Shown: in pieces, positions 383 to 5,357 of the stretch
Numbering within the stretch: the stretch's first letter is position 1
Layout: every line of letters begins with the position of its first letter
Origin: Magnetococcales bacterium
GTDB taxonomy: Bacteria > Pseudomonadota > Magnetococcia > Magnetococcales > UBA8363
DNA length: 48,940 nucleotides
Assembly (NCBI GenBank): GCA_015660855.1
Contig: JACSDG010000039.1
Coordinates: forward strand, 1-48,940
Direction: 5' to 3'
The notes under the pieces: generated by a model
The model's input: the letters and a program-made list of their open reading frames with translations, nothing else
Told to the model about the DNA's origin: nothing
Databases searched by the model: none
Translations under genes and position numbers: made by a program

Positions 383-3300
383 ATGCTGTCAAGAAAACAG
401 GTGGAATCTGCTGGTACGGTTATAAAAATCACGAGTATTTTAGCCTTGTCGGCATTGTTCACAATCAGCACGACTGCCTGCGGTGGCGGCGGTACCGGTG
501 GTGATGGTCCTCCTGCTACGTCCGGCTTGGCGGTTGACGGTCCCATCAAAGGTGGTACCGTCAAAGTTTACAATGCGGATGGAACTTTGTGCTCCCAATC
601 GACTGTCACAACCGATTCAGACGCTTCTTTTTCGATTAGTGGAGCCTCTTGCACCTACCCATTGGCCCTCGAACTGTCGGGCGGTACCGACATACTGCAC
701 TCGGCTGCCGGTATAACGGTTCCAGGGGTTACCATGCGATCCGTCGTTGGGAGCAGTGCTGAATCGATAGCCAACATTTCTCCCTTTTCAACTCTTATCT
801 ATCATGCCCTCCTGAAAGACAAGGGCAATCTGTCCGATGCGGGCATCACGACCAGCAACGCAGCCAGCTCCATAAGCAGTAGAGCCTCAGCGGTTATAGA
901 TGCTTTTGGTTTTGGCGTCGACACCAGTACCGATGGTACGGCAAGCAAAGACTTCAATCCTATTACCGCTCCGTTATGCAGCACCAACTATGCAACGTTC
1001 GTCCAGGCTAGTGAATCTCTGTCCGAAACGGTGCGTCGTACGGCCAGAGCGGCTGGTGGTGTTAATACAACCAATATTGAGGAAATATTCAAAGTCCTTG
1101 GAAAAGATTTCTCCGACGGTGCGTTGGACGGAAAAATGAGTTTGGTGGACGGAACTTCGACTTCTGTGACTTCCGGTATTTCCGGTTTCAATGCCGATTT
1201 CATTCGTGCCTACGCATCGTCCAATGCTCTGTTTGTCCTCAACGATATTTTTTCCACGAACGGTCTGAGCATTACCGGCCAGGACGTTTCACAGATAAGT
1301 GCTCCGTCTGCCGTCAAAACGGCAGCTTCCGAGACGTGTACTTGTACTGTCGCCAGCTATGACGATGTCAAACCAAGTTCTGCGGTGATCACTCAGTGGT
1401 CCAATACCAAGAAGGCTGCTCTGAGCCTTCTTGGTCAGTCTTCTCTTGCGGATCTTGGCATTTCTTCCGATCTTACGACGTCGCAATCCATCAGCTCCCG
1501 TGGTTCCAAGACGGTCAGCTCCACTTACGCCAGCAGTGCAGCTGACTCTTCCAAGGTTTCGACTTATTCGGCCAATATCACCTCTCCTCCGGCCAATATC
1601 ACCTCTCCAGGGGCTTCCGGTCTGGCGGTTGACGGTCCGGTCAAAGGTGGCAGGGTTGACGTCTACAGCGCAGGTGGAACCAAGTGTTCGACGGCTTCGG
1701 TTACCACCAATGCGGATGCGTCTTTCACGATTGATGGTGGTGCTTGTACCTATCCGTTGGTCCTTGAGCTGTCGGGTGGTACCGACATGCTGCACGCGGC
1801 TGCCGGTGTGACGGTGCCGGTTGCCACCATGCGGTCCATCGTTCGCAGCAGCAACGAGACCAGGGCCAACATTTCTCCCTTCTCGACCCTGATTTTCCAT
1901 GCCCTCGTCAAGGACAAGACCAATCTGACCGATGCGGGCCTTTCGGGCAGCAACGTGACCAGCTCCATGGATACCAAAGCCGCGACGATCATCAGCAATT
2001 TTGGTTTCGGGGTCGATGTGAACACCGATGGCTCCGCCAACAGCAGTTTCAACCCTGTCACCGCCGTATTGGGCAACAGCAACATTGCGACCTTCGTTCA
2101 GGCGAGCGAGGCCCTGTCCGAGACTGTGCGCCGCACGGCCAAAGCGGCCGGTGGCGTCAACACCGCCAATATCACGGCTGTCCTGAAAACCCTTGGGCAG
2201 GATCTTTCCGATGACACGCTGGACGGAAACATGACCAAGGCGGATGGAACCTCGACGACCGTGACCTCCGGTATTTCCGGTTTCGACACCACCTTTGTCC
2301 GCGCTTATATACGGGCCAATGCCCTGTTTGTCCTCAACGAGGTCTTCTCCACCACCGGCTTGGACATCACCGACCAGAACGGTTCCAAGGTCAGTGCCTT
2401 GTCTGCCCTTAAAACGGCCGTTTCCTCGGTCAACACGAGTGCCACCACCAGCTACGACAGTGTCAAGCCCAGCTCCCCGGTGGTAACCCAATGGTCCGAC
2501 GCCAAGAAGACCGCCCTGATCCTCCTGGGGCTTTCTACCCTCGCAAATCTTGGCATTTCTTCCGACCTTACGATATCGCAATCCATCAGCTCCCGTGGTT
2601 CCAAAACGGTCAACTCCACCTACGCCAGCGCAGTGGCTGATGCTTCCAAGGTTTCGATCTATGCGGCCAATGTCAGTGCGGCCGCTGCGGGGATAGCCGC
2701 CATCTTGACGACAGGCACTGTCTTCGGTAACGCGATTGAAGGTCCAGTCGCAGGTGCCAGTGTCACCGTTTACAATGCCGACGGCTCCAAATGTTCGGCG
2801 GCTTCGACTACGACCAGCTCCGACGCCAAGTTCAGTCTCAGCATTGGCACGTGTACCCCCCCTCTGGCTCTTGAGCTTTCGGGTGGTACCGATGTGGTTC
2901 ACAGTGCCATGGGTGTCACGGTTCCCCAGACCAACATGCGCTCTATCGTTGCTGCCACTTCTCAAACTGTTGTCAACATATCTCCCTTCTCTACGCTCAT
3001 CTACCATGCACTCATTAATGGTGCTGCCAGTCTGAGTGCTGCTGGGATCACCACCAGCAACGCGGACAGCAAAATTTCGGCCAAGGTCGTTTCTGTCATC
3101 CGGTCCTTTGGTTTCGGTGTTGATTCTCTGACAGATGGTTCTACGGCCAGCAGCTTCAACCCCATAACAACCTCCTTGGGGCCAACCAACCTGGCGACTT
3201 TCATTCAAGCAAGTGAGGCACTTTCTGAAACAATTCGTCGTGTGGCTAAGGTGGGTGGGGGTGTTCATTCCGCAAACATCGGTATGATTTACCAGTATCT

Positions 3301-4288
3301 GGGGAGTGACCTTTCGGATAATATTCTTGATGGTTACATGGTATCCAGTCCGATTGTTTCCGGCCTCTCCGGGTTCAACATGGACAGCATCCGGGTCTAT
3401 ACCATGTCCAACGCGTTTTTTGTCCTCAATGAAATTTTCTCAACGACCGGCCTTTCAATTACCGATCAAAACGGTTCTCAAGCGAATGCTCTTTCCGCCA
3501 TTAAAACATCTGTTTCGGCGGTCAGCAGTTCTGCAACCACAAGCTTTGATAGTGTTAAGCCCAGCACCGTTGCGACGACTCAGTGGACCGATTCCAGGAA
3601 GGTAGCCGTGGCCCTGCTTGGTGTAAGCACTCTTGCGGATCTTGGAATTTCCAGTGATCTTTCAACGTCGGTCTCGATTGCTTCTCGTGGGGCCGAGACG
3701 GGCAGTGTTGCCATGAAGGCCAACTTGGCCGATTCCTCTAAAGTTTCGACCTATTCCGCCAATGTTGGCACTGCCAAAGCCGCCATTGTAAGGCCCTTGG
3801 TTCCAAAAACTGGCCAGACCATATCTTACGCCGCTGGCGACGATGGGGCCATACAAGCGGGTGTACCTTGGCCAAGTCCGCGTTTTACCGACAACAGTAA
3901 CGGCACAATCACAGATAATCTCACAGGTTTGATTTGGCTAAAAAACAGCAACTGTTTCGGTGCTCAGAACTGGACGAATGCCCTCTCTTCTGCCAACACA
4001 TTGGCCAACGGGTCCTGTGGACTTGCCGATGGTTCCGTGGCTGGGAACTGGCGCTTACCTAATCGGTTTGAGTTGGCAAGTTTAATTGATTACGAGCGTA
4101 TCTTTCCCGCGCTGCCAGCGGGTCATCCGTTTTCCAGTGTGCAGCCCAACGACTTCTATTGGTCGAGTTCCACGCTCGCTAGTAGCACGTCCAACGCATG
4201 GATCGCGTACCTCTATCGTGGCCTCGAGACCAAAAACTTTGCCAAGACAAACAGCTACTATGTCTGGCCGGTGCGGGGCGGACAATAG
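383..4288 (+). CDS. Triple-repeat surface lipoprotein with C-terminal DUF1566 domain
   Basis: A 1301-residue protein. Residues 1-33 form a lipoprotein-type signal: a basic start, a hydrophobic stretch and a TTAC lipobox followed by a Gly run. Three tandem ~365-residue units follow, starting near residues 47, 412 and 782. Each opens with a beta-rich module (GPxxGxxVxVYxADG, then LELSGGTD) and continues into a long Ser/Thr/Ala-rich, probably helical part containing NISPFSTLI. From about residue 1142 comes a DUF1566 domain (KTGQT start, WRLPN, YWSSST, end YVWPVRGG), a C-type-lectin-like fold class used by variable ligand-binding proteins. The protein is probably anchored in the outer membrane and displays the DUF1566 domain. 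A smaller DUF1566 gene lies directly downstream and shares its 3' end. The function of the repeats is unknown to me. Confidence 0.85.
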   Translation: MLSRKQVESAGTVIKITSILALSALFTISTTACGGGGTGGDGPPATSGLAVDGPIKGGTVKVYNADGTLCSQSTVTTDSDASFSISGASCTYPLALELSGGTDILHSAAGITVPGVTMRSVVGSSAESIANISPFSTLIYHALLKDKGNLSDAGITTSNAASSISSRASAVIDAFGFGVDTSTDGTASKDFNPITAPLCSTNYATFVQASESLSETVRRTARAAGGVNTTNIEEIFKVLGKDFSDGALDGKMSLVDGTSTSVTSGISGFNADFIRAYASSNALFVLNDIFSTNGLSITGQDVSQISAPSAVKTAASETCTCTVASYDDVKPSSAVITQWSNTKKAALSLLGQSSLADLGISSDLTTSQSISSRGSKTVSSTYASSAADSSKVSTYSANITSPPANITSPGASGLAVDGPVKGGRVDVYSAGGTKCSTASVTTNADASFTIDGGACTYPLVLELSGGTDMLHAAAGVTVPVATMRSIVRSSNETRANISPFSTLIFHALVKDKTNLTDAGLSGSNVTSSMDTKAATIISNFGFGVDVNTDGSANSSFNPVTAVLGNSNIATFVQASEALSETVRRTAKAAGGVNTANITAVLKTLGQDLSDDTLDGNMTKADGTSTTVTSGISGFDTTFVRAYIRANALFVLNEVFSTTGLDITDQNGSKVSALSALKTAVSSVNTSATTSYDSVKPSSPVVTQWSDAKKTALILLGLSTLANLGISSDLTISQSISSRGSKTVNSTYASAVADASKVSIYAANVSAAAAGIAAILTTGTVFGNAIEGPVAGASVTVYNADGSKCSAASTTTSSDAKFSLSIGTCTPPLALELSGGTDVVHSAMGVTVPQTNMRSIVAATSQTVVNISPFSTLIYHALINGAASLSAAGITTSNADSKISAKVVSVIRSFGFGVDSLTDGSTASSFNPITTSLGPTNLATFIQASEALSETIRRVAKVGGGVHSANIGMIYQYLGSDLSDNILDGYMVSSPIVSGLSGFNMDSIRVYTMSNAFFVLNEIFSTTGLSITDQNGSQANALSAIKTSVSAVSSSATTSFDSVKPSTVATTQWTDSRKVAVALLGVSTLADLGISSDLSTSVSIASRGAETGSVAMKANLADSSKVSTYSANVGTAKAAIVRPLVPKTGQTISYAAGDDGAIQAGVPWPSPRFTDNSNGTITDNLTGLIWLKNSNCFGAQNWTNALSSANTLANGSCGLADGSVAGNWRLPNRFELASLIDYERIFPALPAGHPFSSVQPNDFYWSSSTLASSTSNAWIAYLYRGLETKNFAKTNSYYVWPVRGGQ
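521..3805 (+). repeat. Three tandem ~1.1-kb coding repeats
   Basis: In-frame repeats within the 1301-residue lipoprotein gene begin at about 521, 1616 and 2726. Equivalent landmarks recur in each: GPxxGG/A near the start, LELSGGTD about 50 residues in, NISPFSTLI, FGFGVD, SSIAT-type 'LGxxNxATFxQASE' and 'SSDLxxSxSIxSRG' near the end. Unit 2 (1616-2725) is visibly richer in G/C-ending codons (GCC, ACC, AGC) than units 1 and 3, although the protein sequences are alike. This indicates that the units did not arise by one very recent triplication, or that one was replaced by recombination. Confidence 0.8.
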
Positions 4289-4637
4289 AATCTCTGACCC
4301 TTTGATGCTTCAGTATCTTATCCAGTAAAATTTGGCACAAAACGGTCAGGATTACTATGAAAGATATGGACGACAAGGCATAAATCACCCCCTTATCCAC
4401 ACAAAATGGGAATATCCGGAGGAAGTCACCAGCCGTACCGAAACGAAAAAGCGGATGCGGAACCCCTAACCCGGAACGTTGATCGGAAGCTCCGAATCTT
4501 GGATCCCCACTTTCGCTTGGGATGACGGAAACTGCGTATTTCAAGCTTGGTGTGGTTTGGTATAGCAGGTATGACTTTAACTTTTTTTGCCCAAAGGGCA
4601 TCATGTGTAGACTGTAAAGCCGGGTGGAGAGTGCAAA
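4289..4637. repeat. Intergenic region with a degenerate half copy of the GGATCCCC-TTTCG-GATGACG palindromic repeat (4501-4527)
   Basis: About 350 bases between the two DUF1566 genes carry no convincing gene. At 4501-4527 there is one arm of the same palindromic element found complete at 6447-6518: GGATCCCC, an A/G-CTTTCGC core, then GGGATGACG, with two extra T bases. The first 30 bases after the stop at 4288 also resemble the bases after the stop of the next gene at 5231, so the duplicated 3' segment reaches past the coding region. GGAGAG at 4626-4631 is the ribosome site of the gene at 4638. Confidence 0.6.
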
Positions 4638-5231
4638 ATGAAAATTGAGTGTCTTTTTCTTGTGCGTCGGAGGGCCTTTTTTCTGTCGGTGGTAGTTGCA
4701 CTTTTCGCCTCTGCCTATGGGTATGCCGCAGGAGAACCCGCGCCGACACCTAAAACTGGTCAGACAACTTCTTATGGCACCGCTGATGACGGTGCTTTGC
4801 AAAAAGGTCAGACCTGGCCCAACCCTCGTTTTAGTGATATGGGGGATGGTACGGTGTTTGATACCTTGACCGGCCTAGTCTGGATGAAAAATGCGAATTG
4901 TTGGGGGACTATGAGTTGGTCCTTGGCACTAACCAAAGTAGCCGATCTTAACAGCGGTACTGCGACCTGTACCGGATATGTCGGGGGTCAAAACGATTGG
5001 CGGTTGCCTAATGTCAGTGAGTTGAGAAGTTTGATTGACGTGGAGCGAAATGGCCTTATGTTACCAATAGGTCATCCGTTTTCCTCTGTGCAGACCAGCG
5101 ACTATTGGTCGAGTTCCACGGTCGCCGATCCAGTGTCCAGTGCATGGGACGTAAACTTCGGCAGTGCCATCGTGGACGACGCCGCCAAAACTTTCGACTA
5201 CTATGTCTGGCCGGTGCGGGGCGGACGATAG
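4638..5231 (+). CDS. Secreted DUF1566 domain protein
   Basis: A 197-residue protein with a Sec signal peptide (basic start RRR, hydrophobic core FFLSVVVALFASA, cleavage near YGYAAG). Almost all of the mature part is one DUF1566 domain: KTGQT, PNPRF, DGTVFDTLTGLVWMKNANCW, WRLPNVSELRSLID, DYWSSST and terminal YVWPVRGG. It is a close stand-alone relative of the C-terminus of the preceding lipoprotein. It has no lipobox, so it is probably periplasmic or exported. The stretch between SSAW and YYVWPV differs strongly from the upstream paralogue while its flanks are nearly identical at DNA level, as seen in hypervariable lectin-like targets. GGAGAG precedes the ATG by about six bases. The ligand is unknown. 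Confidence 0.85.
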   Translation: MKIECLFLVRRRAFFLSVVVALFASAYGYAAGEPAPTPKTGQTTSYGTADDGALQKGQTWPNPRFSDMGDGTVFDTLTGLVWMKNANCWGTMSWSLALTKVADLNSGTATCTGYVGGQNDWRLPNVSELRSLIDVERNGLMLPIGHPFSSVQTSDYWSSSTVADPVSSAWDVNFGSAIVDDAAKTFDYYVWPVRGGR

Positions 5232-5357
5232 GATCTTTGATACTTTGAGCACTTTCGAGGAGAGAGTGCAGAGTGGTAAGAGATGGGGTGGACCCTAAAG
5301 CAAAGACAACTTTTCGTGGAACACAAGCCTGGTGGTAAGTGTCAAGGAGTGAATGTA

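Follow-up and report, generated by a model that had tools for sequence, protein, structure and literature searches.

Two tandem Lcl_C genes as probable former targets of a diversity-generating retroelement on another contig

Two neighboring genes in the analyzed window, a stretch of 48,940 nucleotides that makes up the entire contig C184, end in segments resembling the variable repeats of diversity-generating retroelements (DGRs). This raises the question of whether a DGR located elsewhere in the genome, a 4.5 Mb draft of 238 contigs with 97.8% completeness, rewrites these genes or once did so. An earlier note on this DNA described them as remote targets and reported no reverse transcriptase in the window; in agreement, nothing on C184 matches a reverse transcriptase. 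In our view, both genes probably served as DGR targets in the past, have been separated from their cassette, are no longer rewritten and now encode intact, fixed proteins.

Genes 1 and 2 lie in tandem, and both end in an Lcl_C domain (PF07603), the current name of the family once called DUF1566. The domain spans residues 1174–1298 of gene 1 (Pfam, E 1e-24) and residues 71–194 of gene 2 (Pfam, E 5e-28). Gene 1 extends beyond the range given in the earlier note (Table 1), and its translation has a lipobox-like N-terminus and visible repeats. An AlphaFold model of the gene 2 Lcl_C domain, built from two sequences only, is unusable, with a pLDDT of 34, and comparison of the domain with the PDB returns one weak match, HbP1 (8q4e, 2e-4). 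CLec folds have been attributed to DUF1566 domains (PMC6642488).

The shared 3' segment

The 3' ends of genes 1 and 2 contain a matching segment of 150 nt with common flanks. The near-identity described earlier resolves into three blocks, with 88% identity at 4121–4154/5070–5103, 96% at 4156–4179/5102–5125 and 83% at 4241–4305/5184–5248, and the last of these extends beyond both stop codons, as had also been claimed. In a pattern search, the 24-mer TATGTCTGGCCSGTGCGRGGYGGA occurs in two copies in the window, where none is expected by chance.

The two genes diverge differently inside and outside this segment. From the YWSSS to the VWPVR motif, VR1 and VR2 differ at codon positions 1, 2 and 3 in 16, 12 and 10 of 34 codons, while upstream of the segment the corresponding counts are 46, 43 and 76 of 123. 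Third-position differences are therefore depleted (10/34 inside versus 76/123 upstream, p=0.0009), a result that persists with a narrower upstream region (11/34 versus 54/91, p=0.009). The codon pattern reported in the earlier note, in which positions 1 and 2 vary and position 3 is kept, thus holds within the segment only and not outside it.

The interval between genes 1 and 2 contains a copy of a palindromic repeat with relatives elsewhere in the genome and in the order; its presence here is probably incidental.

Table 1. Coordinates of the window features and of the C170 cassette
Feature	Contig	Coordinates	Strand	Description and basis
Gene 1	C184 (window)	383–4288	+	ORF, 1301 aa; predicted lipoprotein, three internal repeats, C-terminal Lcl_C (DUF1566)
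Gene 2	C184 (window)	4638–5231	+	ORF, 197 aa; predicted signal peptide and Lcl_C domain; orthologues in G002, G005, G007
VR1	C184 (window)	4128–4286	+	Variable-repeat-like 3' end of gene 1; alignment to C170 template
VR2	C184 (window)	5077–5225	+	Variable-repeat-like 3' end of gene 2; alignment to C170 template
VR1 end corresponding to IMH	C184 (window)	4259–4288	+	TATGTCTGGCCGGTGCGGGGCGGACAATAG; alignment of all repeats, pattern search
VR2 end corresponding to IMH	C184 (window)	5202–5231	+	TATGTCTGGCCGGTGCGGGGCGGACGATAG; alignment of all repeats, pattern search
Gene 1 3' flank	C184 (window)	4289–4371	+	Without the GC-rich hairpin of the C170 and C71 targets; DNA fold, pattern scan
Gene 2 3' flank	C184 (window)	5232–5314	+	Alignment, DNA fold, pattern scan
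Palindromic repeat copy	C184 (window)	4468–4559	+	Between genes 1 and 2; matches on C23, C126 and in relatives
Target	C170	895–2913		672 aa, Calx-beta and Lcl_C
MutS domain I-like ORF	C170	3016–3345		
Avd-like gene	C170	3363–3791		
A-rich template repeat	C170	4353–4505		
Reverse transcriptase	C170	4504–6237		

A DGR cassette elsewhere in the genome

When the genome was searched for Lcl_C domains and reverse transcriptases, the kind of enzyme that the earlier note had advised looking for, a DGR-type reverse transcriptase, was located on contig C170. There, a target gene is followed by a MutS domain I-like ORF, an Avd-like gene, a template repeat and the reverse transcriptase. The enzyme matches RVT_1 (1.8e-20) and a PHROG reverse transcriptase family (1e-101), carries the motifs LPIGNLTSQ and YVRYCDDF, and resembles phage reverse transcriptases; no relatives of it were found in a search of viral contigs. 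The Avd-like gene matches bAvd (7.9e-9) and NF033474 (2.4e-8), both below curated cut-offs. Core mismatches between the template and the variable repeat of the local target fall at 14/36 adenines and at 0/74 other bases. Judged from its sequence, C170 looks like a complete, intact DGR with a typical arrangement.

The cassette resembles that of phage BPP-1 in its target with VR and IMH, Avd-like gene, TR, reverse transcriptase and post-target hairpin (PMC3240598). It differs from BPP-1 in having an additional MutS domain I-like ORF, and the hairpins of the C170 family carry a GRCT loop where GRNA has been reported in phage DGRs. The window repeats differ in lacking a hairpin. The additional ORF encodes 109 aa and resembles MutS domain I only (2e-14). 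Two tandem palindromic repeat elements, translated as SFPRKRESR, lie in frame in the C-terminal part of the reverse transcriptase ORF (C170 5841–6060) and are absent from its relatives in genomes G007, G011 and G013.

The C170 template is A-rich and related to both window segments over the whole repeat, with 74% identity to VR1 (query 14–166) and 70% to VR2 (query 14–162). Where the template has GAATGA, VR1 ends in CAATAG, which is the variable-repeat type. Core mismatches to the template fall at 15/36 adenines and 11/74 other bases in VR1, and at 20/36 adenines and 13/74 other bases in VR2. The template predicted for this genome is thus present, but the mismatches are not confined to adenines. 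A perfect match at every non-adenine site is the criterion used in published work for action in trans (PMC10907252); judged by it, VR1 and VR2, with 11 and 13 departures, do not count as present-day targets of the C170 template.

This sets the window genes apart from known multi-target systems. In Thiohalocapsa PB-PSB1, trans targets agree with a template at every non-adenine site, and most of them are variable in nature (PMC10907252). The present genome resembles that system in having multiple target loci, of which some lack a template or reverse transcriptase of their own, in the modular N-termini and related C-terminal domains, here of putative lectin fold, of the targets, and in MITE-like repeats around the loci; unlike those trans targets, the window genes mismatch the template at non-adenine sites (PMC10907252). 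Published multi-target DGRs likewise have DUF1566 genes as targets, with each template serving several variable repeats (PMC6642488). Two differences set the window pair apart: divergence has accumulated at non-adenine sites, and the cassette sits on another contig.

Another Lcl_C gene, on C71, encodes a caspase-domain protein and is a much closer match to the C170 template, with core mismatches at 14/36 adenines and 4/74 other bases. Across 86 sites at which the template is not adenine, VR1 and VR2 differ from all other repeats and from each other at 12–23, whereas the other variable repeats differ by only 2–12, even across genes and species. These data bear on whether a second DGR template, somewhat different in sequence and missing from the draft, actively rewrites the window genes as remote targets, a reading we regard as unlikely. 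VR1, VR2 and the C71 repeat do have common flank letters unlike those of the C170 template (GGTCGAG, CCGGTGCGGGGCGGA), the assembly is a draft, and several repeats of this family sit at contig ends or close to them. The fragmentation and incompleteness of the draft also weaken the former-target explanation, since a second template could be missing. However, VR1 and VR2 disagree at 20 of the 86 sites, more than one recent template shared by the two could account for; the genome search, within the limits of a draft assembly, found the C170 template and no second one of its type; and, as described below, both repeats lack a downstream hairpin.

The genome has two more DGR-type loci, at C180:8000–20000 and C39:64000–76000, and thus three DGRs in all. 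Both of these loci contain a reverse transcriptase and a template together with a pair of repeats. The repeats differ from the templates at 19/24, 17/25, 13/28 and 19/27 adenines and at few other bases, and the repeat-encoded segments resemble formylglycine-generating-enzyme/sulfatase-type lectin folds. The C180 and C39 templates give only short matches to the window, of 13 and 20 bases.

Adenine bias and silent sites

The earlier note cited a pattern of adenine-directed differences, and on their own these do not suffice. A control Lcl_C gene on C51, otherwise without signs of being a target, differs from the C170 template at 20/35 adenines and 29/79 other bases (p=0.034). Under the same alignment, VR1 has a bias no stronger than this (p=0.036), which weakens the former-target explanation. 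The bias in C51 arises because template adenines sit at positions that are variable across the Lcl_C family. Adenine bias was therefore rejected as sole proof of target status, and silent sites were tested instead.

When one template is the source of rewriting, third positions are reset within the repeat and left alone upstream of it, making silent sites better evidence than the adenine bias, which is weak alone. The active-looking C170–C71 pair shows a strong drop, with third-position differences at 3/34 sites inside and 62/97 upstream. The drop in the window pair is intermediate (see above), and the C51 control shows no significant drop in comparisons with seven genes. VR1 and VR2 thus carry the silent-site homogenization expected of former targets, with a control that is not significantly homogenized. 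Taken with the 12–23 differences at the 86 non-adenine sites, the intermediate drop suggests a past homogenization of the window segments with the family, followed by drift.

The same comparisons weigh on the view that neither gene was ever a DGR target and that both are ordinary Lcl_C paralogues, with a variable segment that is simply a ligand-binding face and template adenines that coincide with positions variable in any case. The adenine bias of the C51 control fits this view, which we nevertheless hold to be very improbable: silent homogenization is seen in the window segment and is not significant in the control, the similarity passes the stop codons into a 3' flank of target type, and an orthologue of gene 2 lies within a DGR locus in a relative, G007. 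The silent-site drop and the 3'-flank homology argue against the strong form of this interpretation.

Orthologues of gene 2 in two genomes of the same genus (G002 and G005) provide a further comparison. Silent divergence of VR2 from them is 0.34 and 0.41 in the repeat and 0.30 upstream, while divergence at positions 1 and 2 is 0.39–0.46 in the repeat versus 0.16–0.18 upstream. It seems improbable, then, that the C170 cassette still rewrites the window genes in trans at low frequency. The complete-looking cassette, the partial homogenization of VR1 and VR2 and the residual hairpin-free retrohoming of BPP-1 (PMC3240598, PMC12875486) are all compatible with such activity. Against it stand the 11 and 13 non-adenine core mismatches, compared with 0 for the local target, and a silent divergence of VR2 from its orthologues that is as high as upstream.

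Downstream hairpins, relatives and the probable retirement of targets

DNA folding and pattern scanning indicate that the targets on C170, on C71 and in G007 are followed by a GC-rich stem of 10–12 bp with a GRCT loop, and the G013 target by a stem of about 8 bp. A current remote target would be expected to have such a hairpin, and the same methods detect none in the 3' flanks of VR1 and VR2. The VR2 flank retains a decayed form of the sequence leading to the hairpin of the C71 target, with the GC stem gone. The hairpin is likewise absent in G002 and G005. In BPP-1, it is required for efficient retrohoming (PMC3240598), although some retrohoming persists without it (PMC3240598, PMC12875486); the former-target explanation is weakened insofar as the hairpin rule comes from this one system, with its residual activity. 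The remote-target proposal is thus partly supported, in that the genome contains a DGR reverse transcriptase and a related template, and lacks support as to current status, given the non-adenine mismatches and the missing hairpin.

Relatives place gene 2 close to DGR components. In G002 and G005, its orthologue adjoins a Calx-beta/Lcl_C gene like the C170 target; no template and no closely related reverse transcriptase were found in these two genomes. In the sister species G007, the orthologue directly follows a DGR reverse transcriptase that is 67% identical to the C170 enzyme. These positions suggest that gene 2 once belonged to the cassette. Linkage of this kind is seen for gene 2 only, and none was found for gene 1 in the relatives.

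In the order of events that we infer for the two former targets, mutagenized cDNA of the A-rich template would once have replaced the last ~150 coding bases of genes 1 and 2, diversifying the C-terminal Lcl_C domain of two predicted exported proteins. The window genes would then have become detached from the cassette, which persists on C170 in complete-looking form. Their repeats are without the hairpin needed for efficient retrohoming in the model system, and its loss may have contributed to their retirement. Rewriting would be absent today, and both genes would be drifting at non-adenine and silent sites with their reading frames intact, implying that the variants they carry are fixed.

It is conceivable, though we would not count on it, that such retirement with hairpin loss is recurrent across the genus, that the pairs in the window, G002 and G005 are frozen products of hypermutation, and that silent divergence within the repeats dates the stop of rewriting. 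Should retirement prove general, the retired genes would preserve a record of the hypermutated variants worth keeping. DGR targets of this kind are already known, and the present case is a further example. Surveys that require a variable repeat beside the reverse transcriptase miss remote targets (PMC8144416), and this case shows that remote or retired targets can be recognized from the genome alone. Non-adenine mismatches, silent homogenization relative to upstream sequence and the downstream hairpin may together tell a live target from a retired one.

Two observations in relatives concern the repeats themselves. In G007 and G013 (L062 3512–3666 and L071 1335–1490), a full-length Lcl_C gene ends where the template would otherwise be, directly ahead of the reverse transcriptase. 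This 3' end has the GAGAATG terminus of the template type and has lost the AAC-rich content, which suggests that a target has replaced the template or that the two have fused. Finally, contigs of two genomes from different families (G011:C144 and G039:C157) carry an identical Lcl_C variable repeat sequence at their ends, which may reflect recent transfer or contamination of one assembly.
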